Assembly: GCA_001972305.1 (NCBI GenBank)
Contig: BDDD01001386.1
Coordinates: forward strand, 229,356-293,355
Source: Cephalotus follicularis
Lineage: Eukaryota > Streptophyta > Magnoliopsida > Oxalidales > Cephalotaceae
Direction: 5' to 3'
DNA: 64,000 bases
The position numbers were made by a program, and so were the translations under genes. This document shows, in pieces, positions 1,899 to 60,939 of the stretch (position 1 is the first letter of the stretch; each line of letters begins with the position of its first letter). Under the pieces are notes generated by a model that saw only the letters and a list, made by a program, of their open reading frames with translations, had not been told where the DNA came from and ran no database searches.

Positions 1899-4086
1899 TG
1901 ATGGAAACGGATAAAACCGAATCCGGAGCAAAAAATGGACTTAGGCATAAAGGGTGTAGAACAAAACAAAATCATACAAAATAGCAGCGGAAGAACACCC
2001 AATAAAAGAGAAAAATAGTCCAAGAGGCATGTCCACATACCACATGGATCACCACATCATCACATTGATTGAATTGGTGTCACCAATGGTAACCAAAAGT
2101 GACACACACACAAGACTACAATGGAGAGATAAGGAGTTCATTACCACACGGTGATGGCTCATTCTTTCTTTGTCGCACCAAGCTTGCGAAGACTCACTTC
2201 CAAAGCTTCCAATGCGTTCTGCTTCTGATCCAAGTCGAAGCCTAAGAGCTCCAAGCACCAAGATGTAAAATAAAGTTCTCACACACTCTCTTTAAGCTTA
2301 GGAAAGGTAAATTGATATTGACCAATGAAGTAAAAAATCAATCTACCCCAGATAAGCTCTTGATTGGTGTATCACAGATGAAAGGAGCACAATCTGCAGA
2401 GAGAGATCCGAATTATTCTTGCCCAGCAAAAACTCAACTCTCATTATCTATCACATTTTCTACAGAAAATGCTTATCACTAGCCTTCTCCTTCTCTCTCC
2501 CACTCTCCCATTCACTTGGGATCATGGTCCTCACTCCTCGGGAGTCTGTGGCCATGATCCCCACATTTCCCATAACATGCAAGCATAGGAGATGGCTGCT
2601 GGAGATGAGAGAGAAAACGTGCCCACGAAGTGAGTTCGTGCACAGGTTGCACGTCCTGCTCAAAGACGTCGATGCTTTCCGAAAGACATCGACGCTTATG
2701 TAATGTGGCACTAAAGACATCGACGGTGTGTAAAAGACATCGACGCCTACAGCAACGTTAAGCATCGACATGTTTCTAAAAGGCGTCGACGCTTTGTCTG
2801 GCAAGTGAAGCAAATTAGAGTCTAACTCTTTTAGTGATCTCATGTACCCTTCGACTATTGGTTAAGTAAGATCAAACATATGTGTTTCCACAAAATCCAA
2901 GATCCACATAACCGATACTTGACACCAAGACTTAATATATCCAACATATTAAAGAACTAATCATTATAAGGCAGGGACCTTTTAAAATCTTGGTTAAAAC
3001 AAGAGGTGTTCATAAATTACCGAAATACTCCTAGGGTCCGGTTTAGCCATTCTAAATGGTCCTTGACCAATTTAAATGCTATCGGAATAATATCTAATAT
3101 TATCCAGATGGAAAAATTAATCTAATTAATTTTCCATAATTTATTACACACCTCATTAACCCTAGATATTCTAAGTCGTCGGTTCACGTGTACTATCATC
3201 CCTTGTCATGCTTGGCCCCGATTGAGGTCTAGGGTAAGGATATGTGTCAACCCTAGATAATACCTCAATGGCTAAAATATCTGATCATTACTAGGACCTT
3301 TGGTAAACTCTCCAGAAATCTAATTTCCAGTCTACCTCAACCTTGGCCAAGGATTTCATAAGTCCAAAGTATAATCATACCATAAAAGGGCCGATCACCT
3401 TCGCTCAGGTGTGACAATCCCATATTGCGCACTCACTTATATTTGTATAGATTCGATCATACCCAAATTCCACCCGATTGCCAGCCCTGCATAAGGACTG
3501 GGTAAGGTGGAGATCAAAGCATAACCGTCTCCATACAATATAGAGTAGTCGCTCAGGTCTAAGGATTAGACGAGTTTGAGAACTCGCTAAGTGATGATCA
3601 CTTATACACAACACCAATAAGTAGGAATCACTACTGACACGAGAATAGCGACTATCCAAATAGTGTCTCCTACGCGAGTCCAGTTCAGTGTACACTCTCC
3701 CAGCATGCACCCCGTATTTTCCCTAGTGTCCAACACAGATGGTAGTGAGAGAATCCATCCTCCAATTCCATGAGCAGGCAACATACGCGCAAGTCTATCC
3801 GGTTCACTAATGCCCACAAAGTGAACCTATGACTTGGAACTAATTTGACATAAGGAATAAGGTAACCAGTCTCATAGCCTCCATGCCAGGCATCCAACCT
3901 TATGTCAGGGCATCACAAGTATAAGTAGGTAATTAATAAACTACTTCAATTAAGTGATAAAATACGAGTGATATAGCCATAACAAATTAGCACGCATCAT
4001 ATATATAAGGAATAAGATTTTTTCATACAAGAATAGATATAAAACGACAGTCCATGCAATGGCTTGTTGGGTCACTATATCTAACA
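1899..4086 (-). repeat. element B 3' LTR
   Basis: Collinear with 21586-23770 and differing by only a few bases per hundred. Ends are TG...CA. It holds a GTCGA-type palindrome array at 2661-2797. ORFs on either strand here recur only because the LTR is duplicated, and they look like no known protein. Confidence 0.93.
2661..2797. repeat. palindrome array (GACRTCGAYG type) in B 3' LTR
   Basis: Six spaced units, for example AAAGACGTCGATGCTTT at 2662, GAAAGACATCGACGC at 2681 and GGCGTCGACGC near 2782, separated by 10-20 bp. The same array is at 22345-22485 in the other LTR, where two units are better preserved. Confidence 0.85.
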
Positions 4087-4096
4087 ATCTCCCACT
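4087..4096 (-). other. polypurine tract of element B
   Basis: On the minus strand the sequence reads AGTGGGAGAT immediately before the LTR start TGTTAG. This is the usual copia plus-strand priming site. Confidence 0.8.
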
Positions 4097-4417
4097 TGAC
4101 CCTCAAGCCATGAACTCCTATAGCCTAGACCCATCGTCCCACGATGATGCTCCAGAGCCTTGGTGCCCAATGCCTTGGTCCGTGGATCTACTGTGTTCTC
4201 CTCTGAGGAGACCCTCTCAAGCTGTATATCTCCCATACCAATAATCTCTCGGATTACAGGATAGCGTCGCTCGATGTGTTTGGATCGTTGGTGAGGCCGC
4301 GGTTCCTTGGCTTGTACTACAGCCCCATTATTATCGTAGTATATAAAACCTAGACTAATAATGGAAGGAACAACTCCTAGTTCAGTAATGAACTTGCGCA
4401 TCCATAAACCCTCCTTG
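4087..4417 (-). pseudogene. copia RNase H C-terminal part, element B
   Basis: On the minus strand the frame reads KEGLWMRKFITELGVVP, YYDNNGAVVQAKEP, HQRSKHIERRYPVIREII and TVDPRTKAL. This is the C-terminal half of a copia RNase H domain and the pol tail. It joins across element C to ...EVEYIAASDAA at 14063 and onward, restoring one continuous RNase H reading. The break lies at the GCGGC TSD of C (4418-4422 and 14063-14067). The gag-pol frame has in-frame stops upstream, so the gene is inactive. Confidence 0.88.
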
Positions 4418-4601
4418 GCGGCTGTGACGACCCGAATTCCCTTTTGATCTATTCATGCATACATCGTACCACATTGTACTGTATCGGACCACATTGTATT
4501 GTATTGAATTGAGGTATTCTTATACCTATTGAGATTGTATTGGTTTTATGCATGTATAGTCGGGATTTTGGGCTGAGTTTCAAAGAGTTGGGCGAATTGA
4601 C

Positions 4602-4609
4602 TATAAAAG
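4602..4609 (+). promoter_or_regulatory. TATA box of element C 5' LTR
   Basis: TATAAAAG followed about 15-80 bp downstream by a CT-rich stretch typical of plant transcription starts. The same box is in the 3' LTR at 11838. Transcription would start near 4635, placing the palindrome array in the transcribed part of the LTR. Confidence 0.7.
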
Positions 4610-5120
4610 TCAATTCTCACTCTCATTCTCTCATTTTTCTCTCATTCTTCTTCCTCTCTCTATCCTTCTCCTCTCTCTCTCTCCCAGCCAGCAGCCTCCT
4701 CCTCCATAGCAGCTCCGGATTTGCTGCTTCATTGACAAGTAGTGATTGCAAGCCTCCTTCTTGCGGATTGAACAACGTAGCAGCCATTTGAGTGATTGGA
4801 AGCTCAACTTTTGAAGCTTCAGTGATAGGTAGGACTTCTTTACTGAACTGTCTATTGTTTTATTGATTGATTGACTGAATTACATGATTGATTGAGTGAT
4901 TGAATGATTGAATTGAAATGAATTGTGAAACTAGGGTTTTTATTGATTTCCTTGACCTAATGGATCTAGGAAGACTAAAAAATTGAAATTGAAAGGTTGT
5001 AAAAAGTTTTATTAACCTTAAATGATTGTTTTTAAACCTTGGTTTTCAAAGAATGGCTTGAAATTGGCTTTTGACTTGAGATTGGCCCTATTTTCTGCAT
5101 AAAATCGACTCTGCCCAGCA

Positions 5121-5455
5121 AAGACATCGACCCCTACCCCATGGAAGTCGATGTCTTTCTCATTAGAGTGCTGTATCTTTGATTCTGCAGCAAAGACATC
5201 AACGTCTTTCAAAGACATAGACGTCTTTGCCTCGAGATGTCTTTCCCCTGGAGAGACATCGATGCCGAACATCAACGCGCATTCCCAGGGTATTTTTATT
5301 GAAACGCATCGATGCCTTTCTCCAAAGACATCGACGTCTTTGGCCAGATCTCTACACAAATAGGGAAAGACTTCGATGTCTTCCAAAGACATCGACGTCT
5401 TTCCACCATTTTAAAGAGGTGTTGATGTCTTTCACCAAAGACATCAACGCCTAAC
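5121..5455. repeat. palindrome array in C 5' LTR
   Basis: About a dozen units of AAAGACATCGACGTCTTT and degenerate forms (CATCAACG, CTTCGATG, GTTGATG), some back to back and others spaced by 10-35 bp. Differences between units fall mostly at CpG positions. The array is repeated in the 3' LTR with several units gained or lost. Confidence 0.9.
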
Positions 5456-5577
5456 TGAAGGGAGTTTTTAACTATTTAAAGTTGGGTTTTGATTTCTTTT
5501 CACATTGTCACTTGACTGGAGCCTCACTTGAGGTGTTCAAGTGTTTGAAACAGTTTTAATGAATGTACTGATTGATT

Positions 5578-5821
5578 GATTGCTTGAGTCATAAGTGTTG
5601 TTGTGAGTCTAAGTCGGTAAAATGGATGCACGTTCCCATCTCTCCATTAGATACCACTACTTATTGACCTTGCTTCGACGCTGTATTGATACATTGATCG
5701 ATTGCTTGAGTCATAAGTGCTGCTGCGAGTCTAAGTCGGTACGATGGACGCACGTTCCCATTTCTCCATTAGACACCACCACTCATTGACTTTGCTTATT
5801 GACATTGTAATTATATTGTAT
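5578..5821 (+). repeat. 122-bp tandem duplication in C 5' LTR
   Basis: Two units begin with GATTGCTTGAGTCATAAGTG at 5578 and 5700. The duplication has the same period in the 3' LTR (12798 and 12920), so it predates this insertion. Confidence 0.85.
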
Positions 5822-6853
5822 TGACTTGATTGATTGATTGTATTGTATGGATCCCATAGAGCGACCTTATGATTCGTGTCTGCAGGTTAGGTTGTTGACT
5901 CTGTCCACCTATTTCATTGATCGTTTCATTTACTGTATTGAATTGACCCGCTGACGAGCGGCACCGATTGATTATCGATTGATGCGCCCTTGAGGGCGTT
6001 AGCTCCCTAACGGTATCAGTAGCTCCCTCAGTTGTAGCTCATCGAGATTTTGTTGACCCAGCCATAGGCTGGAAGATCTATGTGTTCTAGACCTGATCAG
6101 TCTGAGAACCGTAGATAGATCTCCCACCCTTTTTGAAGGACTACCTTCCGTGGGATTGATCATTGCTAACTTAATGACATTGTTTTGACACCGGTCGCTT
6201 GCTCTATAGGATATTGATTGATTGATTGGGTGTTTTATACACAACCATCGAATGTCTACTATTGATTGATTGATTGATTGATTGATTGCCTGCTATAGAT
6301 CCTATCCGTATGCTCTGATATGGGCCATTGTCATACGGGTAGTTTTATCGCCAACTGTACACATGCATTTTCCATGTCATGCATTGATATTGTACACCGC
6401 ACATTGATATTGTATAGATTGTCTCCAATATTACACATTGTACATGCATACATGTTGCATGGGGTTTCTTCTTAACCAGTGTGGCTAACCCATCCTTCGG
6501 GGTGGGGCTGTGTTGTACCTTGTGTGCTGCATGGGTAGGGCAGTAGGTAGTAGCGGACAGAAGGATTGAAGACTGGATTTGATCGCACGACTGCTTGGGC
6601 ATCGCAGAGCTGATTGAGACATTGTAGTGAAAAGATTGATTTGTTATGTTTTGTAAAAGACTTGTATTGTAAATAATTTTTATTGTATTGCATCATATGG
6701 ATGGGCATTTGTATTGTATCTTCCGCAAATGATATGTATTGCAAATTTTTAAGTTTTTTCGCATTTTTATATTGCTAATCCCGACCATTGTATTGTGTAT
6801 TGGATTGAGAGTAATGTCACGTGTCTGCCCTGCGGGCGCGGAGTGTTACAGTA

Positions 6854-12353: not shown

Positions 12354-12668
12354 CAAAGACATCGACCCCTAGCCCATGGACGTCAATGTCTTTCTCATTA
12401 GAGTGCTGTATCTTTGATTCTGCAGCAAAGACATCGACGTCTTTGCCTCGAGATGTCTTTCCTCTGGAAAGACATCGATGCCAAACATCGATGCGCATTC
12501 CCAGGCTATTTTTATTAAAACGCGTCGATGCCTTTCTCCAAATACATCAACGTCTTTGGCCAGATCTCTACACAAATAGGGAAAGACATCGATGTCTTTC
12601 AAAGACATCGACGTCTTTCCACCGTTTAAAAGAGGTGTCGATGTCTTTCGCCAAAGACATCGCTGCCT
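12354..12668. repeat. palindrome array in C 3' LTR
   Basis: Contains a perfect 18-bp palindrome AAAGACATCGATGTCTTT (12582-12599) followed after one base by AAAGACATCGACGTCTTT (12601-12618). Other units are degenerate. It lacks one unit pair present in the 5' LTR near 5205-5220. Confidence 0.9.
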
Positions 12669-14062
12669 AATGTACTGAAGGGAGTTTTTAACTTTTTAAA
12701 GCTGATTTTTGACTTCTTTTCACATTGCCACTTGACTGGAACCTCACTTGAGGTGTTCAAGTGTTTGAAATAGTTTTAATCACTGTACTGATTGATTGAT
12801 TGCTTGAGTCATAAGTGTTGTTGTGAGTCTAAGTCGGTAAAATAGACGCACGTTCCCATCTCTCCATTAGATACCACCACTTATTGACCTTGCTTCGACG
12901 TTGTGTTGATACATTGATCGATTGCTTGAGTCATAAGTGTTGCTGTTAGTCTAGGTCGGTACGATGGACGCACGTTCCCATTTCTCCATTAGACACCACC
13001 ACTCATTGACTTTGCTTATTGACATTGTAATGATATTGTATTGACTTGATTGATTGATTGATTGTATAGTATGGATCCTATAGAGCGACCTTATGATTCG
13101 TGTCGGCAGGTTAGGTTGTTGACTCTATCCACCTATTCTGTCGATCGTTTCATTTATTGTATTGTATTGACCCGCTGACGAGCTGTACCGATTGATTGTC
13201 GATTGATGCTACCTTGAGGGCCGTAGCTCCCTAACGGTATCAGTAGCTCCCTCGGTTGTAGCTCATCGAGATTGTATTGACCCAGCCATAGGCTGGAAGA
13301 TCTATGAGTTCCAGACCTGATCAGTCTAAGAACCGTAGATAGATCTCCCACCCTTTTTGAAGGACTACCTTCCGTGGGTTTGATCATTGCTAACTTATTG
13401 ACATTGTATTGACACCGGTCGCATGCTCTATGGGATATTGATTGATTGATTGGGTGTTTTATACACAACCATCTAATGTCTGCTATTGATTGATTGATTG
13501 ATTGTTATAGATCCTATACGTATGCTCTTTTATGGGCCATTGTCATACGGGTAGTTTGATCGCCAACTGTAAACATGCATTTGCCATGTCATGCATTGAT
13601 ATTGTACATCGCACATTGATATTGTATAGATTGTCTCCAATATTTCATATTGTACATGCATACATGGTACATCGGGTTTCTGCTTAGCCAGTGTGGCTAA
13701 CCCCATCCTTCGGGGTGGGGCTGTGTTGTACCTTGTGTGTGGCATAGGTAGGGCAGCAGGTAGCAGCGGACAGAAGGATTGAAGACTCGATTTGATCTCA
13801 CGACTGCTTGGGCATCGCAGAGCTGATTGACACATTGTAGTGAAAAGATTCATTTGTTATGTTTTGTAAAAGACTGGTATTGTAAAGAATTTGTATTGTA
13901 TTGCATCGTATGGATGGACATTTGTATTTATCTTCCGCAAATGATATGTATTGTAAAGTTTTAAGTTTTTTCACATTTTTAAATTGCTAGTCATGACCAT
14001 TGTATTGTGTATTGGATTGAGAGTAATGCCACTTGTCCGCCCTACGGGCGCGGGGTGTTACA

Positions 14063-14953: not shown

Positions 14954-16286
14954 TCAAGATTCAGGAGGAGTGGAAGCATTAGATTCGGAGTCATCTCCCG
15001 AGGTTTCTTCAACTTGATCGATGGTCTTTGATTGAGCAAGCTTCCTCTCCATCCGTTTTAATCTTCTCTTCGTGACCTTTAAGTCATAGAAGATGTTGTC
15101 ATCAGTGTTTTGGAGGTCCTTATGAACAGTCCAAAGATCACCTTCCAAACTTCCAACACGAGTCTTGATCTCCTTAAAATCTTCCTTAAATGAGGATTGC
15201 ATGGAAGTGAATTGATCTTGCAGGGATAGCAGCATTTCCATGATCCTATCAAGGTGAGCAGAGGATGAGGAGGGGGCTGTTTGTGCAGAGGCAGAGGCTG
15301 CAGGGGCAGGGGTATCATGTTCCCAAGGGGGATTGTCCTCTTGCTCCTCCCTTGCAAGCCTAGGAGCTTGATCCGCTTTAGGGTGATAAATCCACACTCC
15401 TTGCTCCTTTTTCCAGCCCATACGATTCAGTGTGCTCTTGTTATAAGTATCCTCCTTCTTCAATTTCGTGGAGATCTCTCCTTCGAGAGGAATGTGATAG
15501 TGAAGGAAGATAAGGGTGAGAAGAGATCCATAGGGTAGGACTGATTTCTTTTGAGAAAAGGCTCGCACCATAGTCTTAAGAATCAAGAGTGGGAAACAAA
15601 ATTCGACCTTTGATAGAATGCACCACATGATAAACACTTGCATTCTAGACAATTTGGCGTACCCTCCACCGGTGGGTAAAATTTGGTGCACGATAAGGTG
15701 GTGGAGGAGCCTATGATCGACAGACAAACGGTTGGTTGTGAGAGACATATTCGGATGGACGTTTGGATCATTGGGATACAAAATGGAAAGAATTTGATTA
15801 GGGTTAAAACCCTCAACCTTCGGCCATTTTTTTATGTTCGAAAACATAAATGCCGGTATGTGGAATATGGAGAATTGAAGCTAGAATTCTAGCATCAAGA
15901 AACATACGCTGACCTTTAACAACAGAAGTTATAGCAAATTCTTCGTTAGGACCGGAAACCATTTTCAAATTTGAGTAAAAATCTTTAACCAATTTTATAT
16001 AAAAAGGGTTAGAGATTTGGACAAGTGGGAGTAAATGTAGGTTTTCCAACCATGACACAAAAACAAATTCGGAGGAACAGAAATCATAGTCTATATTTCT
16101 GCCTCCCATAACCCTTTTCTCTACAAAACTTAGGGTTCGGATTGGGACAGGGTGTTCTGAAGAGGAATCGGAGTGGGAAGAAGCAGAAGATGATTCCCTA
16201 ACCTCTAATCTCTGCTTCTTAGCAGATTTCTTTGGTTGGGAAGGTGAAACAGCCTTCTTTTTGGTGGCTTTCTTTGTTCTTGGCAT
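14954..16286 (-). pseudogene. envelope-position ORF of SIRE-like element D (one frameshift)
   Basis: It starts at the ATG at 16286 with a lysine-rich N-terminus (MPRTKKATKKKAV...KKSAKK, nuclear-signal-like) and a Ser-rich stretch. A globular core follows (FYIKLVKDFYSNLKMV, FLDARILASILHIP) that resembles the plant retroelement-associated 'putative plant transposon protein' family and the K protein at 61992-63221. The C-terminus has a Pro/Ala/Ser linker, a probable coiled coil (LDRIMEMLLSLQDQFTSM onward) and an acidic Ser-rich tail. No signal peptide or clear membrane helix is visible, so 'envelope' describes its position after pol, not a shown function. A one-base change in the T7 run at 15827-15833 shifts the frame between HKKMAEG and FNPNQIL. 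Confidence 0.75.
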
Positions 16287-16493
16287 TATGACAAACAGTT
16301 GGTGTGCACAAGGTGAAAGAACAAAGAGTGAAACGATTCAGTGGATGAGGACAGACTAAAAACGATTTTTGTAGTAGAGAAGAGTTGAGAGAGATGTTTT
16401 CGACCAGAAAGAAACGATTTTTGACGAAAAACAGAGAGATTGAAAATTTTTGAAAATGCAGAAGAGAGAGGGAAATATATAAATGAGCAAAAG

Positions 16494-16780
16494 GTCGACT
16501 TTTATGGAGAAGTCGAGTGTCTGAGGAAAAGACGTCGACGTCTTTATAGAAGGAGTCGACGCGATTTTAAAATTTGGCTATAAAAACGGTGCGTTTTAAA
16601 AAGGATCGACGTTTCTTGAAAAGAGGTCGACGTGTTTTAGAAAAACACAAAGGGATCAACGTTTTTCAAAAGAAGTCGACGTGATTTTCATAAGATGCGG
16701 TTTTGCCAGAAAAGGAGTCGACTCTGTTTTGCAAAGCACAAAAAATTCCAGAAAAGGAGTCGACGTTTTTCAATCCAGAA
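16494..16780. repeat. palindrome array between RNase H remnant and ORF in D
   Basis: About nine units, including the perfect 18-bp palindrome AAAGACGTCGACGTCTTT (16528-16545). Most others are half-sites such as GGAGTCGACG, AGGTCGACGTG or GGATCGACGTTT. The array precedes the start codon of the D ORF by about 200 bp, so it would lie in its leader if that ORF is translated from a subgenomic RNA. Confidence 0.88.
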
Positions 16781-16869
16781 CAGAAAAATCAAGCCGAAAA
16801 CAGAACAAAAATAACAACAATCACCATATCAAACAATCATTCAATCAAACATGTTATTCAAACATAATG

Positions 16870-16931
16870 TATGTCATTCAAGTTCACATAATCCTAATTC
16901 TCTTCTAAACTTAGAGAAAGAATTCTCATCT
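16870..16931 (-). pseudogene. RNase H C-terminal scrap of element D
   Basis: The minus strand matches the last residues of SIRE-type pol (FSKFRMELGLCE in K, here with FRRELGLCELE). It abuts the 5' LTR part at about 16932, which marks a large internal deletion of gag and pol. Confidence 0.6.
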
Positions 16932-17333
16932 AAAAAAGGCGTCGATGTCTTTTACTTGGACGTCGATGTCTTTGTCTGGGGATCGATGTCTTCGAGTGCA
17001 TTTTTCAGACAGTAGCTTCTGTTCCAAAAATGACTAATCCCGTCGATGTGAACACTGAAGTAGTCGATGTCTTCTTGAATGTAGTCGACGTCGTCTGGAA
17101 GTAGTCGACTTCTTTTGGTACGGACGTCGATCTCTATACTGGGAGGACGATGCTTTCTTGGCAGTTAATTCTGTTACAAAAGGCGTCGATGCTTGTGGGA
17201 AAGGAGTCGACTTCTTTTTCTGCAAATGGCTTTAGACTTTGATATTCAACTTGTAATTCCTTGCACATCAAGTAACTTAGTTAGATGCAAATATGTTATC
17301 ATCAAAACAAGGATTGAGACTTAATCGTCAACA
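16932..17333 (-). repeat. partial 5' LTR of element D with palindrome array
   Basis: It ends in ...ATCGTCAACA (sense TGTTGACGAT). Units at 16939-17219 include GGCGTCGATGTCTTT, GACGTCGATGTCTTT and AGTCGACGTCGTC. The other LTR is absent. Confidence 0.7.
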
Positions 17334-20315: not shown

Positions 20316-21110
20316 CCAACAACCCAGGAACACTACTAAACGAAAATTGTGGAAGGCCACGGGGAACCACTCCATGGGTTCCTACGTCAAGACTTGTTAT
20401 TAAAGTGAGGGAATTTGCGGTCTCAAGTTTTAAATACAATGCCATTAATTAATTCATTGGTTATATTAGCCAATTCCAATTAATTAGGGCTTAGCATGCA
20501 AGACGTGTATCTTATGCACCTTGGACATATTTCTAAAATATGTCAATGGATTGGCAAGGACATTATTAGTAGTGACTTGAGCCCAAAATAACTACTAGGT
20601 CTTCCTAGGTGTAAAGATTTAAATCTATTTATTACAACAATAACCATGCATACATGGCCTTCAAAAGTCTTGTACTTCATTTCTCCTTTCCTCCGTCTCT
20701 CCTTGTAAGGTCTTCTTTTACATAAAAGAACATTACATTTTCGAAAAGGAAAATACATTTTAAAAAATTACAAGGAAAAATTACAAAAGAAAGGAAAAAT
20801 AAATGATGCACGCAGGCACCTTATTACAGACCTTTAAAATAATAAATGAATAACATCCATCCACATAAAGAAAACCATAAACTAGGTCAATGTCCTTTTT
20901 CGGGCCATCCATTGTGCATAAGACTTATATAATATCCAATATTATAAAACACAAATAAAACAAATGCCATAAATAATAATCAATTATACAACTTAATTTA
21001 AGGATTGTTAACTGATCAAACTCCCACTAAATCAAGCAATCATTTTTGATTTTCTAAGTGCCAAAATGTATAAAATCCAATTTTATTAAAAAACAGTTTT
21101 TTTTATTTAA

Positions 21111-21305
21111 AAGACGTCGACGCTTCCCAGAAGGCGTCGACGCATTTCACGAGAATTGTTGAAAAAGGAATCAATGTTTATCAACAACATCGACACGTTT
21201 CCTGGGAATAGATGAACAAGACATCGATGCGTTTCAAGAGCATCGACGCGTTTCATGAGAAGATGAACAAGACATCGACGTCTATCAAGAACGTCGACGT
21301 CTATA
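21111..21305. repeat. palindrome array in B leader
   Basis: About nine units (GACGTCGACGC, GGCGTCGACGC, GACATCGATGCG, GACATCGACGTC, AACGTCGACGTC) at irregular spacing, some followed by TTTC. B therefore carries arrays both in its LTRs and just downstream of its PBS. Confidence 0.88.
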
Positions 21306-21585: not shown

Positions 21586-23770
21586 TGATGGAAACGGATA
21601 AAACCGAATCCGAAGCCAAAAACGGACTTAGGCATATAGGGTGTAGAACAAAACAAAATCATACAAAATAGCAGCGGAAGAACACCCAATAAAAGCTAAA
21701 AACAGTCCAAGAGGCATGTCCACAGACCACATGGATCACCACATCATCACATTGATTGAATTGGTGTCACCAATGGTAACCAAAAGTGACACACACACAA
21801 GACTACAAGGGAGAGATAATAAGTTCATTACCACACGGTGATGGCTCCTTCTTTCTTTGCCGCACCAAGCTTGTGAAGACTCACTTCCAAAGCTTCCAAT
21901 GCGTTCTGCCTCTGATCCAAGTCGAAGCCTAAGAGCTCCAAGCACCAAGATGTAAAATAAAGTTCTCACACACTCTCTTTAAGCTTAGGAAAGGTAAATT
22001 GATATTGACCAATGAAGTCAAAACTCAATCCACCCTAGATAAGCTCTTGCTTTGTGTATCACAAATGAAAGGAACACAATCTGCAGAGAGAGATCCGAAT
22101 TACTCTTGCCCAGCAAAAACTCAACTCTCATTATCTATCACATTTTATGCAGAAAATGCTTATCACTAGCCTCCTCCTTCTCTCTCCCACTCTCCCATTC
22201 ACTTAGGATCATGGTCCTCACTCCTCGGGAGTTTGTGTCCATGATCCCCATGTTCCCATAACATGCAGGAATGGGAAATGGCTGCTGGAGATGAGAGAGA
22301 AAACGTGCCCACGAATTGAGTTCGTGCACAGGTTGCACGTCCTGCTCAAAGACGTCGATGCTTTCCGAAAGACATCGACGCTTATGTAATGTGGCACTAA
22401 AGACATCGACGCTTTCTAAAAGACATCGACGCCTACAAAAATGTTAAGCATCGACGTCTTTCTAAAAGGCGTAGACGCTTTGTCTGGCAAGTGAAGAAAA
22501 TTAGAGTCTAACTCTTTTAGTGATCTCATGTACCCTTCGAATATTGGTTAAGTAAGAACAAACATATGTGTTTCCACAAAATACAAAATCCACATAACCG
22601 ATACTTGACACTAAGACTTAATATGTCCAACATATTAAAGAACTATCATTATAAGGCAGGGACCCTTTAAAATCTTGGTTAAAACAAGAGGTGTTCATAA
22701 ATTACCGAAATACCCCTAGGGTCCGGTTTAGCTATTCTAAATGGTCCTTGACCAATTTAAATGCTATCGGAATAATATCTAATATTATCCAGATGGAAAA
22801 ATTAAACTAATTAATATTCCATAATAAATTATACACCTCAATAACCCTAGATTTTCTAAGTCGCCGGTTCATGTGTACTATAATCCCTTGTCATGCTTGG
22901 CCCCGATTGAGGCCTAGGGTAAGGATATGTGTCAACCATAGGTAATACCTCAATGGAGAAAATATCTGATCATTACTAGGACCTTTGGTAAACTCTCAGA
23001 AAATCTAATTTCCAGTCTACCTCAACCTTGGCCAAGGATTTCATAAGTCCAAAGTATAATCAGACCATAACAAGGCCGATCACCTTCGCTCAGGTGTGGC
23101 AATCCCATATTGCGCACTCACTTATATTCGTATAGATTCGATCATACCCAAAGACCACCCGATTGCTAGCCCTGCGTAAGGACTGGGTAAGGTGGAGATC
23201 AAAGCATAACCATCTCCATACAATAAAGAGTAGTCGCTCAGGTATAAGGATCAGATGAGTTTGAGAACTTGCTAAGTGATGATCACTTATACACAACTGC
23301 AACAAGTAGGAATCACTACTGACACGAGAATAGCGACTATCCAAATAGTGTCTCCTACGCGGATCCAGTTCAGTGTACACGCTCCCAGCGCGCACCCCGT
23401 ATTTTCCCTAGTGTCCAACACAGATGGTAGTGAGAGAATCCATCCTCCAATTCCATGAGCAGGCAACATACGCGCAAGTCTATCCGGTTCACTAATGCCC
23501 ACAAAGTGAACCTATGACTTTGAACTAATTTGACATATGGAATAAGGTAACCAGTCTCACAGCCTCCATGCCAGGCATCCAACCTTATGTCAGGGCATCA
23601 CAAGTATAAGTAGGCAATTAATAAACTACTTCAATTAAGTGATAAAATACAAGTGATATAGCCATAACAAATTAGCACGCATCATATATATAAGGAATAA
23701 GATTGTTTCGTACAAGAATATATATGAAACGACAGTCATCCAATGGCTTGTCGGGTCACTATATCTAACA
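21586..23770 (-). repeat. element B 5' LTR
   Basis: 2185 bp, collinear with 1899-4086. Contains the palindrome array at 22345-22485 (for example GACGTCGATGC, GACATCGACGC, GCATCGACGTCTTT). Followed by TSD aacag at 23771-23775. Confidence 0.94.
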
Positions 23771-23775
23771 AACAG

Positions 23776-38960: not shown

Positions 38961-39701
38961 GTCTTCTACCTCACGACATATCAAACAGTGGCCTCAATAA
39001 CCCATAATCATGTACAATAACGGGTTTTCATAGCAAGAACCAACATGCAGATATTCAAAACATGCTTAGCATAGCATGGCAGCAATCCAGTAGCAATATC
39101 ATTCCAAGAATCATGCATTTTATACATTCCAAAATCATATATCATGCATGGATATTAAACTTGAAATTACAGTATGGCTTTCCCCTACCTCTGGCTTCAA
39201 GTTAGAAACCGAAGTCCACCTCTTTTAGTATCCAAACAGGTCACAGCAGCCTCTCTGGGTCCGTCCCGTAGCTGCACCAGTGGTTCAAGGTCCCAGTTCC
39301 AAGCTTCAAGCTCAACAATGGTGGAACACACACACACTGTTTTTATTTCCTCTCTTTCTTCTGGTGTTATAAAACGAGAGAGATAAGTGGGGAGGGTTAT
39401 TCTTAAGCAGATGTCTCCCCCCCGACATTCCTCTCCTGGCATTTAACTGCCACATTCCTACCCTCTCCTACCTACCTTCTTTCTGCATTTCTTTTGCATT
39501 CTTTAACTATTCTTCCCTTTGCAGGTTGTAGGTGAGGATTCCTTTGCATGTTCCATGTGAGGCATGCTTCGGAACATGCCAGACAACACACCACTGTGAT
39601 TAACACGTCATAATGCACTCGAAAAGGTGTCTGGTAAAGTCCCATAAAAATCCCCCTGCATGTTACTTCTGCCGATGAAGAACGTGACAGCCATTCTCCA
39701 C

Positions 39702-39842
39702 AAAGGCATCGACGTCTTTCATTAGACGTTGATGTCTTTTCTATTTTTGTAAGAAGGTGTCGAGGGCTTCTCTCAAAGTCCACGTGCACCTCACTCCCCA
39801 AACGCGTCGACGTCTTTTCCTAAGACGTTGATGTCTTTATCC
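39702..39842. repeat. palindrome array (upstream side) in I 3' LTR
   Basis: GGCATCGACGTCTTTC, GACGTTGATGTCTTTT, GCGTCGACGTCTTTT and GACGTTGATGTCTTT. The second copy (46500-46640) keeps GACGTCGATGTC where this one has GACGTTGATGTC, a CpG-to-TpG change. Confidence 0.88.
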
Positions 39843-40006
39843 CAGAACAACGCCGTTTCAAGCTTTAGTTATACATTCCATTTCCAAAGTCACAAGTAGG
39901 GTTTGCAAGCATCCTTTGAGCCCAAAACTCAACATTCTCATTAAATCAAGTTTAATGATTACATCATAATTGAAATATTATAATCAGGAAATTACTGGGC
40001 GTTACA

Positions 40007-44197: not shown

Positions 44198-45483
44198 CTG
44201 CTGTCACACCCCGTTTATAGAAAACGCGACATAAAAGCGATAAAGGCAATTAACATAAAACACAGCTCATGTAAAAACCATAGAATTTAAAACTTTTCCA
44301 AGAACAACAGTTGCGGAAGCATAAGAAGTTCATAAGCTGTAACACGTAATGTGCGTCCCATACCGCACGCTACACAAATACTAGTCATCAAAGTTAATCG
44401 CCCATAAAACGGAGCGTGAAATAATAGTACAATACAATATTCTGTCATAAACAATACCATCACAATGGTATATCCAGAAATCATAAATCCACAAAGGTTT
44501 AAACAATCAGGAAGATAACAAAATCAAGAGTATAACAGCTTGATCTTCGTCCATGTCGATCCAAATGTCCACTGCATCAATCTGTAAAGTAGGGGGTTAG
44601 CCTTTGTCCTCACTCGGCCAAGTCATAACAGTAATTCGGGATTAACATAACGCATGTCATGATGTGAATGCATGAATGATGCAGTGCAGTGGAGACTCAG
44701 TTTATACATATATAAAAATACGTATATCAGTACAGTAAAATATCAGTGTTACATATATAAGAATGTATGTGTACAGTAGCAGTGCAGTAGTAACCCGGCC
44801 AGGGCTACATCAAAATCACAGTAATGTCCGTAAAGGACCAATAAACAGTACAGTACAGTATGTCCACATAGGACCACAATAACAGTTATAGCGCCGCCAA
44901 CTCCTGGCCCCACGCTACACTCCCACTACGATCCCCACATCGGGCAACCGAGCGAGGCAACAGTACAGTGAGTCACCTAGCCATGCTCCAGGCCCCTAGG
45001 TACAACCCTACCACTAGACATCGCTGGCAACCTCCGCCATGCAACTAGCAGCTCAATCACAATTACATAGCAACTCACAAAGCAAACAGTGAATTCAAAC
45101 AGTAACAGTACAGTAAACAGTGATGATCGATTTGATCGAAAACATGCAGTTGTTTTCCAAAATGTTTCCAAAATTGACAACATTTGAAAATAGGTATTTT
45201 CAGTAGAAAATATCAGTAAACAGTTTCAGTAGTGTAAATTGTTTATTCAATCAATTGAAAATACGTTATTTAATCAATACATATTTCCGTACTCAAAATA
45301 TCCTATTCCGAGTTTATATATGCATTTCTAAGTATCGATACTTTAGAAATCATGAACAATTCACAAACAGTACACAATCAGGCAGTAAACAGTGTATATG
45401 CGATGCATACATATGCTCAAATGCACCCTAACAGGAACCGGGATCGTTTCATATCATTAGATGAAGAAAACCCCAAACAGTAA

Positions 45484-45758
45484 CAAAGACGTCAACGTCT
45501 TTCCCAAAGGCGTCGATGTCTTTCACGTCAGGCGTCGATGTCCAAGTCTCAGTGTCAGCGCGTTTTTCTTCAGAAGACGTCGATGTCCGTTCCTCACACG
45601 TCGACGTTCAAGGACTGGAACCTCGAAACGATAGTGTATAATATAATGGCGTCGATGTATTTCCAAAGACGTCGATCCCTTTCAATCAGGAATAAGGCAA
45701 AAACTGAGAGACGTCGATGTTATTCTAAAAGGAGTCGATGTCTTTTCCAATAGTAGTC
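45484..45758. repeat. palindrome array (transcribed side) in I 5' LTR
   Basis: Copy of 38687-38960. The first unit reads GACGTCAACGTC where the 3' LTR has GACGTCGACGTC, a G-to-A change at a CpG. Confidence 0.9.
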
Positions 45759-46499
45759 GTCTTCTACCTCACGACATATCAAACAGTGGCCTCAATAACC
45801 CATAATCATGCACAATAACGGGTTTTCATACCAAGAACCAACATGCAGATATTCAAAACATGCTTAGCATAGCATGGCAACAATCCAGTAGCAATATCAT
45901 TCCAAGAATCATGCATTTTATACATTCCAAAATCATATATCATACATGGATATTAAACTTCAAATTACAGTATGGCTTTCCCCTACCTCTGGCTTCAAGT
46001 TAGAAACTGAAGTCCACCTCTTTTAGTATCCAAACAGGTCACAGCAGCCTCTCTGGGTCCGTCCCGTAGCTGCACCAGTGGTTCCAAGGTCCAAGTTCCA
46101 AGCTCCAAGCTCAACAATGGTGGAACACACACACACTGTTTTTATTGCCTCTCTTTCTTCTGGTGTTATAAAACGAGAGAGATAAGTGGGGAGGGTTATT
46201 CTTAAGCAGATGTCTCCCCCCCGACATTCCTCTCCTGGCATTTAACTGCCACATTCCTACCCTCTCCTACCTACCTTCTTTCTACATTTCTTTTGCATTC
46301 TTTAGCTATTCTTCCCTTTGCAGGTTGTAGGTGAGGATTCCTTTGCATATTCCATGTGAGGCATGCTTCGGAACATGCCAGACAACACACCACTGTGATT
46401 AACACGTCATAATGCACTCGAAAAGGCGTCTGGTAAAGTCCCATAAAAATCCCTCTGCATGTTACTTCTGCCGAAGAAGAACGTGCAGCCGTTCTCCAC

Positions 46500-46640
46500 A
46501 AAGGCGTCGACGTCTTTCATTAGACGTTGATGTCTTTTCTATTTTTTAAGAAGGTGTCGAGGGCTTCTCTCAAAGTCCACGTGCACCTCACTCCCCAAAC
46601 GCGTCGACGTCTTTTCCAAAGACGTCGATGTCTTTATCCC
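46500..46640. repeat. palindrome array (upstream side) in I 5' LTR
   Basis: Copy of 39702-39842: GGCGTCGACGTCTTTC, GACGTTGATGTC, GCGTCGACGTC, GACGTCGATGTC. Confidence 0.88.
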
Positions 46641-46808
46641 AGAGCAACGCCGTTTCAAGCTTTAGTTATACATTCCATTTCCAAAGTCATAAGTAGGGTT
46701 TGCAATCATCCTTTGAGCCCAAAACTCAACATTCTCATTAAATCAAGTTTAATGATTACATCATAATTGAAATATTACAATCAGGAAATTACTAGGCGTT
46801 ACAGATAG

Positions 46809-51517: not shown

Positions 51518-54137
51518 GAGGGAAATTCTTTGAGTTCAAGTTTCGGAGGCTCCTCAATTGATGGTTTAGGTACGGATGTGGACAAGGGGCCCACTGGCTC
51601 TAACGGCTGCATACTAAATGCATCAACGAATCACCTCCATTGACATCCTTTAAATCCTGCATGCAATCATTAAAATTTCAATCAAAATCAATGTCGAAGT
51701 GTGTATCAATATAATCAGGAAATGCATGGATTGCATTCAATTCCTCAAAATCGGCAGAATGCTTACCCAATCGGAAAACATTAAAATCCACGGACGTATT
51801 TCCGAAGCTTAATTTCATCAGACCATTTTCATCAGACCATTTCGACAATTGATTAATGCATTACTTGTCGCCAGGAAAGGTCTACCAAGGATAACTGGAA
51901 TTTGATCATTTAAGTTTGCAACAGGCTGAGTGTCTAAGACGACAAAGTCGATAGGAAAGAAAACCTCTCCAACCTTTATCAACACATCCTCGATTTTTCC
52001 TCGCGGCACCTTCACAGACCTATCTGCTAATTGCAATGTCATCGTGGTTGGCCTTAACTCTCCTAGTATGAGCTTCTCATAAACCGATGATGGCAACAAA
52101 TTCACACTTGCTCCTAAATCGAGCAAGGCATGCTGAATTTTCGTGTTTCCAATAACACAAGAGATTGTCGGGCAGCCAGGATCTTTATACTTTCGCATTG
52201 TGGGTTGCGAAAACAGTGCACTAATGTTGGCTACCAAGAAAGCCATTTTTGGAGTCTGAAGGATCCTCTTTTTAGTGCATAAGTCTTTAAGGACTTTTGC
52301 ATAAGAGGGCACCTGTTCAATTGCTTCAAGCAATGGAATATTAATTTGGACTTGCTTAAATGTTTCGATGATCTTCTCCATTGCTGGGGCTTTCTTGTTT
52401 TGCAATATTTTTGGAAAGGGAGCGGGTGGGTCAAATGAACGCTTTGGCGCCTCACCCGGTTGTTTCTTCTTCTCGTCCTCTTTCTCCTTCCTCAATTCAT
52501 CGTGCACATTTAAATGTATTGATTGCTCCGATGGGTCAATCAATAACTCTTGTGATTTTTCTTGCGCCGAGGATTCCTCCATTTGCTCCCTCACGTTCTC
52601 CGTTTGATCTGCTAGATGATATTCATTTCCACTCCTTAGGGCAAAAACTTGTTTTGATGGACCTGAGGAGGAAGCTGAATTTTGCAAATTTAATTGTTGT
52701 TGGGTTTGAGCGGAATGGCTGAAGGCAGTCCTAGGATTCGGGTTAGGTTGGGAGGGCATTTTTCCTTTTCCTCTTTCGTTTAGAGCGGATGCTAGTTGTG
52801 AAATTTGTTTTTCCATGTTATGCTGACTAGTCATCACAGTGCTCATAAGAAGTTCCATGCTCTTTTCTAGCGACGAAATCCTAGATGGATCCTCCCTTTG
52901 GTTCAACAATCCAGATGTTTGTTGATTTGAGAGTTGATTTTGTGGTGGAAAGGATGGTTGAATAGTATTCAAATTTTGGGAGAACCTTGGAAATGTCTGT
53001 TGTGGTGCAGACTGGCTAGGGAAGCTCGAAGGTTGTCCCAAAAAATGTGAAGGTGGAGCACCAACGCTAGAAGGCTGCTTCGAAAAGCTTGATTGTCCTC
53101 GCATGTTTTGCCCTTGACTCCATGAGAAGTTTGGATGATTTCGCCAACCCGGATTGTAAGTGTTACTATACGGGTTGTATTGATTCATAGCAGACACATT
53201 CTCAGGAGCATATTGATTGTCAATATAAATTTAGCATTCTTCAAAAACATGATTTGGGGACTGACACCAAGAACACATAGGGGTGCTGTGATCGATTTGG
53301 TTGACTTGCGTGGAACCCCTAAGCAATGACTCTAATCTAGTTACGCGACTTTCTAGCTGTACTTCTTTAGCAACTGCTCCTTCTATAACGTACCATTTAC
53401 TTGGCAATGCTCTCTCAGAAACTTGGGTTGACTCCCACTCTCTATTTCGCTCACCCAAATCTAAAAGAAAATTCCATGCCTCGTTTTCATCCGTGTACTA
53501 GGTGAAACTGTCGGGACACATTGATTCGACCAATTGCTCGGTCTGGTAGTCGATCCCTTCGTAGATGATTTGACATAAATGCCACATGTTTAAACCATGA
53601 TGAGGACACTCTAAAAGAATGTTTTTGAAACGTTCCATACACCTAGAAAATGATTCATTAGGTTTTTGATGAAACTGGAGAATATCGTTCCTATGTTTAT
53701 TGGTTTTATGAAGTGGAAAGAATTTCTTTAGGAACCAAAACAGTGAAATGGTCCCATGTAGAAATGGAACCATTGGGGAGACTGTAGAGCAACTTTTTAG
53801 CTCCATCTTTCAGCGAAAAATTTATGAAACGCAATTTAATTGCGTCATCTGAGAGTTGTTGAAGTTTCATGAGGGCGCATGCCTCCTCAAACTCGCGAAG
53901 GAAGAGATATGCATCCTCATTGGGTAACCCATGAAAGTGCGGGAGCATGCTAATGAACTGTGATTTTAACTCAAAATTGTTCCCGTTAGGTGCACGCAAC
54001 AGGATACAGGATGGTTGCGCTGTCCTCGCGGGATAGAATCTATCGCGCAGAGTTTGGAGTGGGCGTTCGTCCGCCATTTGTGGTTGTTGAATGTTTCGCT
54101 CGAGACGGTTATCTGAGCTGCGTACCCACTCAGTCAT
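51518..54137 (-). pseudogene. gag and protease of Athila-like element L
   Basis: ATG at 54137. Gag N-part: ERPLQTLRDRFYPARTAQPS, FELKSQFISMLPHFHGLPNE, YLFLREFEEACALMKLQQLS, GAKKLLYSLPNGSISTWD. After a frameshift near 53750: FFPLHKTNKHRNDILQFHQK and ESFSRCMERFKNILLECPHH. A knuckle-like CSWCQSPNHVFEEC follows near 53240, then a 460-codon open stretch. That stretch includes the protease-like region (HALLDLGASVNLLPSSVYEK, where the catalytic motif reads DLG instead of D-S/T-G, and PVILGRPFLATSNALINC). Stops lie near 53495, 53230 and 51815. Reading continues past 51815 (LSFGNTSVDFNVFRLGKHS) to the truncation point. RT and integrase are absent. Confidence 0.88.
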
Positions 54138-54990: not shown

Positions 54991-55383
54991 TTGATTGAAT
55001 TAAGCTCCATTTATTCACCAACTTTCAGCTTCACCGACAAGATGTTTGTGGATTTTAATCAGACAGACAAAGTGTTTGCGAAGGCAGAAATATTGAAGAA
55101 CAAATCAAATATTCAAGGATTTTTATTGAAGGAATTGAAACAATAACAATCTAGGCTTTGTTCTTCCCCAAAACCTTGAAAAGTTTAGCTACTAAACATT
55201 GTGAAACAAACTAAAATTGATAAAGAAGAAAAATAGGGTTTCTACCAGCCTCTACACAATCTCTTCTTAATTTGGCCGGCATTGCATTGTTTTTATACTA
55301 CAAAACAGATCAAAAACGGAAATAAGTCAACCCTAGTTACAAAATCTAGCAAAACATCTAACTTTCTATTTCTGCTGCAGAAG

Positions 55384-55690
55384 AAGTCGTCGATGTGTTT
55401 AGTTGAAAGTCGACGTCTTTTGTATAGAATCGCGTGTTGCTTAGATGCGCGTAATGGACATCGATCCTTTTGATGAAAGACGTCGATGTCTTTTGATCCA
55501 AAAGTTACAGGTCGAATTTGCACAAAGACGTCGATGTGTTTGATGAAAGACGTCGGTGTCTTTTTCATAGCTCTTGAAGGTAAGTTGCAATCCCAGAAAA
55601 GACATCGATCCGCAACAAAAGACATTGACGCGTTTACTGCAAACCCAGAAAAGGCATCGATCCCTATGATAGACATCGACGCGTTTACTC
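55384..55690. repeat. palindrome array in L LTR
   Basis: About eleven units: GTCGTCGATGTG, AAAGTCGACGTCTTT, GACATCGATCC, AAAGACGTCGATGTCTTT (perfect in its inner 12 bp), GACGTCGGTGTC, GACATTGACGCG, GACATCGACGCG. An Athila-like element thus carries the same motif as Tekay and copia elements. Confidence 0.88.
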
Positions 55691-59003: not shown

Positions 59004-59015
59004 TGGTATCAGAGC
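59004..59015 (+). other. primer-binding site of element N (initiator Met tRNA)
   Basis: TGGTATCAGAGC, perfect, two bases after the LTR end TTTCA. Confidence 0.93.
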
Positions 59016-59055
59016 GGGTATCTCATTATTCTTAATTGTTAGAGATAAAAGATCT

Positions 59056-59960
59056 ATGGCAACTTTCATTTGTGGTTAAACTCAATCCCTCTATAGCCCC
59101 CCTTACTTTGATGGTGAAAACTATGGTTATTGGAAAACTAGAATGACTGTTTTTTTTTTCAAGCTTTGAACTATGATTTGTGGGATATAATTATGGATGG
59201 TCCTATTATACCTACTACTATAGTTGATTGCAAAGGTGTGCTAAAACTTAAAAATGAGTACACTATTTTTGACAAGAAGAATTTGCAATTGAATGCTCGT
59301 GCGATGCATGTTTTTTATTGTGCTTTAGGCCCTAATGAATTTAATAGAATACGTTCATGTCTTTCAGCTAAAAAAAAATGGGATAAACTTGAGAGTACAC
59401 ATGAGGGTACTAATCAAGTCAAAGATTCTAGAATTGATATGCTTATTAACGAATATGAATTATTTGAGATGAGACATTATGAATCTATCTATTATATGTT
59501 TGATAGATTTACCAATATTATAAATTCGATAAATTCTCTTGGTAAATAATTTTCTAATAATGAACTTGTGAGAAAAATCCTTAGGTCCTTGCCCAAATCT
59601 TGGCAAGATAAAGTGACCGCTATTGAAGAAGCAAAGGACCTCACCAAGCTTAAATTGGAAGACCTTCTTGGATCACTCCTCACACATGAGCTTGCAATGT
59701 GGAGGATAGAACATGGAAATGAAGAGATGGTTGTGTTCAAATCATTAATAAAAGAAAATAGTGATGATGAAGAAGAAGAAGTTAGCAAAGAATGGAAAAA
59801 TAGGTATGATTTTAGCTCCGATGATGAAGAAGTTGCAAAATTTTGCATGATGGCAATAGAAGAAGGACTAAATAATGAGGTATACAAATTTTCTCATACT
59901 TATAATGAACCTTATAAATTTGTAATTGATTTTAAAGATAAATGGTTAAATCCAGATTAA
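59056..59960 (+). pseudogene. SIRE-like copia gag, element N
   Basis: ATG at 59056. It reads TQSLYSPPYFDGENYGYWKT (typical gag N-terminus), NYDLWDIIMDGP, MHVFYCALGPNEFNRIRSC, KKKWDKLESTHEGTNQVKDS, LRSLPKSWQDKVTAIEEAKD, LEDLLGSLLTHELAMWRIEH and an acidic region, ending at the TAA at 59958. Defects: TAA near 59077, a frameshift in the T-run at 59150-59159, and TAA at 59547-59549. No zinc knuckle is reached before the end. Gag-only remnant. Confidence 0.9.
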
Positions 59961-60143
59961 TCAATTATATTTTACTTTGTTTTATTGAATCAATAATATT
60001 TATATATCTATATATACATATGTTTATTTGAGAAATATTAATGAAGTTTCTTTGAATACTTAATGTTTACATTTGGATCCTATAATGTTAAAATGTGTTT
60101 ATATATGCCATGTAAGATAGTTATTTGTTAAACTAACATAAAT
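59961..60143. other. A/T-rich junction between N and K
   Basis: No gene or repeat of note. TATATA-rich near 59995-60025. The left border of the K LTR lies somewhere here and cannot be fixed. Confidence 0.5.
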
Positions 60144-60939
60144 GGCATCGACGCTATTTAAATATCTTGTTTCCTGTAAAATTGTTCTACATTTACAGGT
60201 GTTTTTTTTATGAACGACATCGATGTTTTTAAGAAACACATCGATGCGTTTCATTGTTGTCAGAACTTAAAAGTTACAGGCATGTTTTACACACAAGCAT
60301 CGATCCGATTTAGTAAAACCATCGATGTTGGATCAAAAGAAGTCGACGTCTTTTCTACCACATCGACGCGTTTTTCATATCATTGAAGATGGGATCGACG
60401 CAGTTCATATGACATAGATCTCGGCTACAAGTCCAGAAAACACATCGATGCCCACATAAGACATCGACGCCTATCATTCATTTAAAAAGGACATCGACAC
60501 CTTTCAATGAAGTCGACGCTTTTGACCGATGATTTCCAAAGCTCTATTTTTTATGATTTCCAAAAAGGGGGAGAGAATATTAAAACAAGGCACATGAAAA
60601 ATGTGAAAGAGTATGGTATGCTAAAGGTAGAATTTCTCTCTTAACAGTATCGCCTCTTTCAATTTTGAGTACTGACGCTTTGTTCTTCAGTATAGCCTCT
60701 TTCAATTTTGAGTGCTGACGCTTTGTGCTCTTTAGTGGTCGACTCTTTCATGTAACTCTCGACGCCTTAACACTTCACAATCCCATAAGTGTCGCCACTT
60801 TAAATTTAGGAGTCGACAGTTTACTTGTTTAAAAACGATTTGTATCTGCTTTGTGTTATTGTTTATCTTGCACAAAACAAACTCATTAGTGGCAAATATG
60901 TTATCATCAAAATTAGGAATTGAGACATAAATGTCAACA
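60144..60939 (-). repeat. partial 3' LTR of element K with palindrome arrays
   Basis: Sense start TGTTGACATT at 60939. Units at 60144-60527 (GGCATCGACGC, GACATCGATG, CACATCGATGCG, AGTCGACGTC, GACATCGACGCC, AGTCGACGC) and a looser group at 60651-60835. A 43-bp tandem duplication (CCTCTTTCAATTTTGAG at 60653 and 60696) lies in the second group. Confidence 0.75.

Follow-up and report, generated by a model that had tools for sequence, protein, structure and literature searches.

Arrays of TCGA-centred palindromes in copia and gypsy retrotransposons of Cephalotus follicularis look like sites for a shared DNA-binding protein

In Sireviruses, which belong to Ty1/copia, arrays of palindromic repeats known as RM boxes lie in the long terminal repeats (LTRs) and upstream of the gene in envelope (env) position (Bousios et al. 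2010, PMC2829016). The parts of that paper used here report RM boxes to be specific to Sireviruses and absent from classic copia elements, with mostly CGG-CCG cores and one consensus per element, and list tobacco Tnd-1 as an exception to this core. Dense short motifs in non-coding regions have also been described for VANDAL elements, in which, according to the portions of two studies considered here, sub-types distinguish related families and change in concert, and the binding protein, VANC, is encoded by the element (PMC5735166, PMC10398659); the available section of a further paper mentions VANC beside LTR elements and draws no link between them (PMC12844716). Here, we describe arrays of a palindrome centred on TCGA in a 64-kb stretch of contig C1386 (BDDD01001386.1) of the 1.577-Gb assembly of Cephalotus follicularis. 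This whole stretch, referred to below as the window, consists of nested LTR retrotransposons, among which the copia element B, the copia fragment K, the chromovirus-type gypsy elements C and I and the gypsy-type element L, which stands outside the C/I group, are associated with such arrays (Table 1). To judge from sequence analysis, the palindromes look like sites for a shared DNA-binding protein to which the elements keep adapting, and we assign a probability of roughly 0.7 to the reading that the arrays are cis-acting sites to which sequence-specific DNA-binding proteins bind as dimers, and that selection maintains them across superfamilies.

The sequence-only reading of the window had recognized the motif GAC(A/G)TCGA(C/T)GTC in 13 array positions and had singled out three 18-mers (at 16528, 38687 and 12582), all of which are present. 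Matches to GACRTCGAYGTC in the window number 13 when exact and 42 with up to one mismatch, compared with 0.20 expected and a maximum of 3 in 100 dinucleotide shuffles, and the density above shuffled sequence on which that reading depended is thus borne out. The motif is real on the scale of the genome as well, where it occurs exactly 115,446 times versus 635 times for the reversed pattern, but it proved to be one form of a broader dyad, AAAG(R)CR-TCGA-YG(Y)CTTT, which extends over 18 bp with information near zero beyond. Three versions can be told apart, namely a (AAAGRCR-TCGA, 18 bp), b (AAAGCR-TCGA, 16 bp) and c (CAG-TCGA), with the core RTCGAY common to all and RYCGAC on both strands of each. 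Version b (AAGCRTCGAYGCTT) is found 29,090 times genome-wide and version c (CAGTCGACTG) 197,377 times, with 27 and 939 occurrences of the respective reversed controls, which brings the copies of all versions together to hundreds of thousands.

The prominence of the dyad is also evident in a random sample of twenty 10-kb stretches, which totals 200 kb of the 1.58-Gb genome and was drawn from contigs (269-944 kb) longer than the assembly mean of ~162 kb. In a de novo count of 10-mers in this sample, dyad variants were the most over-represented, led by GCGTCGACGC at 2169 times its first-order Markov expectation, and the next-ranked included GACATCGACG and CAGTCGACTG types; high-ranking 10-mers unrelated to the dyad were AT runs, GA runs and a few others, CCGAGTGAGG among them. 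TCGA alone among the 16 palindromic 4-mers has flanks that are symmetrical to 7 nt on each side. Among 725 TCGA tetramers, 132 have AAAGRCR-type halves (M1, comprising a and b) and 26 have CAG halves (c), so that 158, about a fifth, belong to the dyad motif, versus none of either kind among 663 TCGA tetramers of the reversed sample. Strict calls assign 108, 29 and 26 sites to a, b and c, respectively, with 0 in the controls. At least one dyad site of some version occurs in 18 of the 20 stretches, and the exact motif accounts for 25 sites in 6 of them. A chance origin of the sites is rejected by the shuffle, reversed-pattern and genome counts. The stretch L023 (C958:243729-253728; GC 30%), with a gypsy-like reverse transcriptase and repeats, has no dyad sites by strict calls, from which some lineages may be without the motif.

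The sites are spaced in a manner that points to double-stranded DNA. Strict neighbouring sites up to 260 nt apart, with M1 and c sites pooled, are never closer than 19 nt (0 of 154 gaps), and 73 of the 154 gaps measure 19-22 nt. Between 30 and 260 nt, the distances follow a period of 10.2 bp (R 0.40; 99th percentile of a jitter null 0.13), the strength of which is overstated because homologous arrays are included. LTRs duplicated within the same insertion were removed for the spacing and covariation analyses (window 21586-23771, 11659-14063 and 37418-40006; L020 6772-8550; L022 6747-8128). A period of 10.2 bp fits better than one of 10.5 bp (R 0.40 vs 0.18), and it is presumably nearer to that of nucleosomal than of free DNA, with the uncertainty that resolution and non-independence bring. 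On contig C1, the first 100 places listed for each of versions a and c likewise show no gap below 19 nt, with 9 (a) and 37 (c) gaps of 19-22 nt, and a neighbour lies within 300 nt of 87 (a) and 94 (c) of the 100 places. The claim of the sequence-only reading that arrays lie outside coding sequence holds: none of 158 sites falls in coding sequence, versus 32.9 expected, coding here meaning a tblastn match to any of 15 window open reading frames (ORFs), with other coding sequence not counted; such matches make up 20.8% of the sample. Arrays as coding repeats are therefore rejected, also because gaps of 19, 20, 21 and 22 keep no reading frame. The position of arrays relative to TATA boxes was examined and was not informative.

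The sharing of the motif across lineages is observed directly, with the owners of arrays in random stretches judged from nearby domains and repeats. Version a is carried by copia B, by the chromovirus-type elements C, I, L012, L020 and L022 and by the gypsy elements L and L027; version b by the chromovirus-type L009, the L-type leader of L013, the LTR of a copia-gag element in L021 and, separately, by L024; and version c by the chromovirus-type L011, L013 and L015 and by copia L014 (RVT_2, Retrotran_gag_2). Two distant copia kinds share one motif version in the window, since the gag of K matches L014 (31-56% identity) and shows no similarity to the B gag by BLASTP; the two window copia gags (59142-59957 and 18942-19856) each contain Retrotran_gag_2 and do not match one another. 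That L stands outside the C/I group is supported, besides its Asp_protease_2 domain and gag match, by an adjacent reverse transcriptase in L027 that is just 34% identical to that of I. Four unrelated lineages, as had been proposed, are tenable in the form of copia B, copia K, chromovirus C/I and non-chromovirus gypsy L. The element that had been listed separately as D appears to be the interior of B, as the primer-binding site (PBS) at 21584 (minus strand) lies beside the LTR at 21586-23771 and no further LTR pair was found inside B.

Within lineages, the versions change while the arrays stay in place. The LTR flanks of the I lineage align on both sides of an array zone that is of version a in two elements, I and L020, whereas L018 has mostly b-like sites there and L013 has c. 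All six sites of L018 fall no more than 3 nt from a site of I (P 0.008, shuffled gaps); site positions are kept where BLAST aligns the slots little or not at all. The leader of the L lineage is of version a in L and L027 and b in L013, with flanks 75-84% identical. By strict version calls, the arrays of a single element agree in version in B, I, L013, L022 and L024, the five elements with at least two arrays, single odd-version sites occurring in B and L022. Motif sub-types thus change in concert between related families in the I and L lineages, with weak matching of positions for c. Exchange of regulatory modules, which had been put forward as an origin of the sharing, need not be invoked for the I lineage, whose arrays occupy homologous positions while the version changes (more weakly for c), although across superfamilies it may be the source of shared arrays.

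The arrays belong to abundant families. With the best 40 of 2,697 (I), 3,532 (B) and 4,187 (L) first-look candidates scored, query included, identity amounted to 95-100% for the I slot 2 array, 93-100% for the B 5' LTR array and 90-100% for the L array. The thousands of candidates and the high identity of the scored copies show that the B, L and I families carry these arrays as a fixed component. Conservation was compared in 11 hand-chosen pairs of homologous zones from different copies or subfamilies; since the pairs share sequences, Fisher p-values are indicative only. Mismatches affect 22 of 539 core TCGA positions, 276 of 1888 in half-sites, 599 of 2994 in spacers and 737 of 4919 in flanks, and CpG is changed in 19 of 270 cases within the core versus 101 of 436 elsewhere.

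These data bear on the possibility that the arrays are neutral, as a tandem repeat or gene-conversion product whose short unit spread by slippage within or between elements. TRF divides some arrays into short tandem units (19-22 and ~52 bp), as such spread would lead one to expect. However, comparison of element with element by BLAST gave 485 short pieces, the longest measuring 41-68 nt per element pair, and the end-to-end alignment between elements that would have marked a conversion tract is absent, so that such a tract is rejected. Moreover, spacers diverge while TCGA cores stay, core CpG is kept while CpG elsewhere is lost, and positions are retained between slots with little or no alignment. 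A neutral origin is consequently very improbable. The proposal that unrelated lineages use a factor-binding site is, by comparison, supported by the dyad at the DNA level, the helical spacing, the non-coding placement, the conserved cores and the changing spacers. That the arrays are instead kept as a common target of host silencing is less likely, because elements should lose such a target.

If the arrays are indeed binding sites, each version of the protein would read the core RTCGAY together with one of the three outer half-site forms, and sites on one face of the helix would let several dimers bind next to one another. Such arrays would be kept by copia, chromovirus and Athila-like elements in their LTRs and 5' leaders, and in many cases ahead of the env-position gene as well, because occupancy might raise transcription of the element or protect it from silencing. 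Upon a change in the available factor, sites would switch version together and positions would stay. The two halves within a site are no more alike (0.587) than halves re-paired within the array (0.578 +- 0.008, P 0.15; version c contributing 2 arrays with 8 sites), so that each half follows the half-site preference alone, as expected for half-site recognition.

Two candidate binders appear about level in our assessment, neither reaching even odds. The first is a host transcription-factor family whose paralogues differ slightly in specificity and on which elements would converge for transcription, which is a choice of binder within the binding-site reading rather than a denial of it. Stress-induced elements use host factors for transcription, and RYCGAC is, we assume, a target of the DREB/CBF type. 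A host factor would agree with the use of sites by unrelated lineages, among them chromoviruses C and I, where a PF20167-like stretch was looked for and not found, with the RTCGAY common to all versions and with the one PF20167 ORF that has no upstream array; the part of the RM-box study drawn on also reports stress-factor sites on comparison with PLACE (PMC2829016). Against it stand the unit itself, an 18-bp dyad with pairing at 19-22 bp, and the concerted version change at homologous positions, which would need several host paralogues in turn. AP2/ERF-type factors, moreover, are mostly thought to be monomeric on DNA.

The second candidate, a shade behind the first, is the PF20167 family acting in trans, much as VANC acts on VANDAL. 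PF20167 (Transposase_32) is found in the ORF at env position, of which 119 relatives from Cephalotus are among the matches listed, and in a structure model of such a protein the top PDB match is VANC21 with DNA. The start of the B ORF looks nuclear in its richness in lysine. An array lies upstream of three of four PF20167 ORFs (B, L014 and L024) but not of the one at 62190-63269; the other places in which sites are found are LTRs, the B 5' leader and the region ~2.15 kb upstream of gag in L. Under the loose definition used for pre-ORF arrays, sites number 238 versus 11 in the reversed control, single loose sites not all being real; a five-core definition gives 285 versus 28. An envelope role of the 3' ORF was considered and is disfavoured for the 62190-63269 protein, which contains no membrane-like segment (maximum 19-residue hydropathy 1.11, 0 windows above 1.6); for B the case is less clear, since one of its pieces reaches 1.99 (4 windows above 1.6) and the other 1.75 (1 window). 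A search for DUF1985 and DUF287 in 21 PF20167 proteins at E<=10 gave no match, and a PDB sequence search returned nothing relevant.

A more far-reaching idea is that retrotransposon PF20167 ORFs encode VANC-like proteins that bind the TCGA dyad arrays against silencing, while other superfamilies, above all chromoviruses without the gene, acquired the sites, use the protein in trans and track its specificity through versions a, b and c. The protein would then bind arrays in LTRs, in leaders and, in most carriers, in the promoter of its own ORF. We regard this as doubtful, and both this idea and the choice of PF20167 as binder were marked down slightly because the region upstream of the modelled ORF has no array.

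Several observations weigh against the reading of the arrays as binding sites or against parts of it. The array predicted upstream of the modelled ORF 62190-63269 is absent, with one loose site at 63422 (200 nt from the ATG) and another at 64673. No PF20167-like stretch was found in chromoviruses C and I despite their many sites. The match to VANC21 is clear from one model only, a second model (P0243), of low confidence (pLDDT 54, pTM 0.44), having yielded no confident Foldseek match. The boundary between versions a and b is blurred, as mixed arrays show (L014 799-1080, L018 6331-6491 and L025 8514-8678), and the agreement of L013 with I in position is weak, with 4 of 7 sites (P 0.087), or 7 of 7 when one indel is allowed (P 0.05). 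Half-sites are modestly better kept than spacers and no better than flanks. Lastly, several arrays fold better as RNA than their shuffles.

This last point could mean that the palindromes act in RNA as hairpins, dimerization signals or small-RNA precursors for host silencing, a role that has been suggested for the palindromes of maize Sireviruses. Predicted folding of eight arrays gave sense z values from -9.9 to -0.1 (three control stretches, -1.9 to 1.1), with -9.9 for the C LTR and -9.1 for the c array of L021, and a maize study, in the part used here, ties palindrome clusters to small RNAs (PMC10760457). However, the I LTR and B pre-ORF arrays are unstructured in sense (z -0.1 and -1.3), in 6 of the 8 arrays the antisense RNA equals or exceeds the sense in stability, and spacings of 19-22 bp and 10.2 bp suit double-stranded DNA. 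The RNA hairpin as the selected unit is disfavoured by the lack of excess covariation between halves. A role in RNA thus seems improbable, though less so than a neutral origin.

The control regions of plant LTRs are usually regarded as the property of a single lineage, whereas here one vocabulary of three related words occurs in both superfamilies. This raises testable questions regarding the role of Sirevirus RM boxes and the purpose of the 'env-like' extra ORFs of plant retrotransposons. Were the binder encoded by an element, retrotransposons would have sequence-specific anti-silencing of the VANDAL type, exploited by other superfamilies too.

The elements of the window were delimited by LTR pairs from self-BLAST, PBS matches and flanking sequence, with domains taken from Pfam (Table 1). 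The flanks of B, which contains Retrotran_gag_2 and SH3_retrovirus, suggest a target duplication AACTG/AACAG with one mismatch. Only ~200 nt (17217-17424) separate its integrase ORF from the pre-ORF array, which leaves no room for a reverse transcriptase, and B accordingly looks non-autonomous. By RTCGAY counts, B has 5-6 sites in each LTR and 7 in the leader, and by the loose definition it has 14 before the PF20167 ORF; each I LTR has 9 + 4 sites with up to 2 mismatches. C and I are of the gypsy chromovirus type by RVP_2, RVT_1 and SH3_Tf2-1, and the I integrase ORF has a Chromo match (E 5.4e-5) just under the Pfam cut-off. Both C LTRs contain a 122-bp tandem duplication (~88% matches) at 5571-5797 and 12791-13017. 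L has a gag match at 53501-53809, and its gag-protease has relatives across angiosperms; Tekay-like and Athila-like are presumptive labels. Two outer elements (1573-1898 with 23771-26099 and 27670-31068; 36452-37417 with 46803-48039 and 49005-51237) have long LTRs and short interiors (~1.6 and 1.0 kb), are without dyad arrays by strict calls and are both probably non-autonomous. The version c sites at 34718-34872, which were not among the arrays noted earlier, lie in a region without Pfam-recognized domains in the scanned ORFs.

Table 1. Retrotransposon features and dyad arrays of the window
Feature	Position	Strand	Remarks
B copia element, 3' LTR (2189 bp)	1899..4087	-	self-BLAST 94.9% to 21586-23771
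Array in B 3' LTR	2662..2797		version a + one b
C gypsy chromovirus-type, 5' LTR	4423..6851	+	PBS at 6854; target duplication GCGGC
Array in C 5' LTR	5120..5455		version a
C 3' LTR	11659-14063		pairs with 4423-6851 by self-BLAST
Array in C 3' LTR	12355..12672		version a
B env-position ORF, second piece, different frame	14957..15880	-	PF20167 E 1.2e-9, below Pfam cut-off
B env-position ORF, N-terminal piece, Lys-rich start	15816..16337	-	PF20167 E 1.5e-5, below Pfam cut-off
Array between B integrase ORF and PF20167 ORF	16488..17217		version a, 14 sites by loose call
Array in B 5' leader	21110..21305		~280-475 nt inside PBS; mostly version a
B copia element, 5' LTR	21586..23771	-	PBS TGGTATCAGAG at 21584 (minus)
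Array in B 5' LTR	22348..22462		version a
Version c sites (CAGTCGACTG-type, ACAGTCGACTGT type)	34718..34872		
I gypsy chromovirus, 3' LTR	37418..40006	-	97.2% to 44202-46803
I LTR slot 2 array, 3' LTR	38687..38948		version a
I LTR slot 1 array, 3' LTR	39702..39839		version a
I chromovirus, 5' LTR	44202..46803	-	PBS at 44197 (minus); target duplication GATAG
I LTR slot 2 array, 5' LTR	45485..45746		version a
I LTR slot 1 array, 5' LTR	46500..46636		version a
L gag-protease ORF, gypsy type outside C/I group	51821..53230	-	Pfam Asp_protease_2
Array ~2.15 kb upstream of L gag-protease	55383..55690		version a; L027 has equal offset
Array after copia gag fragment (K)	60143..60520		version a
PF20167 (Transposase_32) ORF, 360 aa	62190..63269	-	ATG at 63221; candidate DNA-binding family

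The statement that no named feature fits the arrays was too strong, as the account of Sirevirus RM boxes, in the part used, describes palindromic arrays at the same places (PMC2829016). As with RM boxes, the repeat is palindromic and reaches at least 8 copies per element in LTRs (I and B counts). RM boxes have further copies directly upstream of the env-position gene, and in this respect the carriers examined here differ, B, L014 and L024 having an array there and 62190-63269 none. The RM boxes given there for tobacco Tnd-1 (ACAATCGATTGT) and Vitis (CGGTCGACCG) also have a TCGA centre. On the other hand, the core here is RTCGAY rather than CGG-CCG, and the motif is not restricted to Sireviruses, being found in gypsy chromoviruses (C, I, L012, L020 and L022 with version a; L011, L013 and L015 with version c) and in gypsy L. 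In addition, one set of three versions serves copia, chromovirus and other gypsy elements in a single genome; the sites are helically spaced, and homologous slots can differ in version.

The VANC system is approached in the density of short motifs in non-coding element regions and in the concerted change of sub-types between related families (I and L lineages; weak for c positions). VANDALs, however, are DNA transposons, and their YAGTATTAY motif is, in the excerpt at hand, arrayed in one orientation without a dyad and rare in other transposons (PMC5735166), whereas the versions described here span superfamilies. VANC is an element-encoded binder, and PF20167 is, from its structure model, a candidate DNA-binding family. 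A palindrome of maize Sireviruses is also the top motif in structured Helitron regions, likewise one palindrome in two superfamilies of one genome; it is read there as RNA structure, and spacing or version change are not among the features described in the part used (PMC10760457). The additional ORF of sunflower Athila resembles that found here in its PF20167 domain, 3' position and nuclear-localization signal, and the section considered proposes neither motif arrays nor a DNA-binding role (PMC11728184). Of 5.39 million papers searched for the literal motif, 10 contain it, none of them on transposons by title, and sharing across superfamilies in plants was not found described in the literature searched, the maize Helitron remark excepted. 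On balance, the arrays resemble RM boxes in form and place and the VANC system in behaviour, and they differ from RM boxes as described in their core, the sharing across superfamilies, the helical spacing and the switching between versions.

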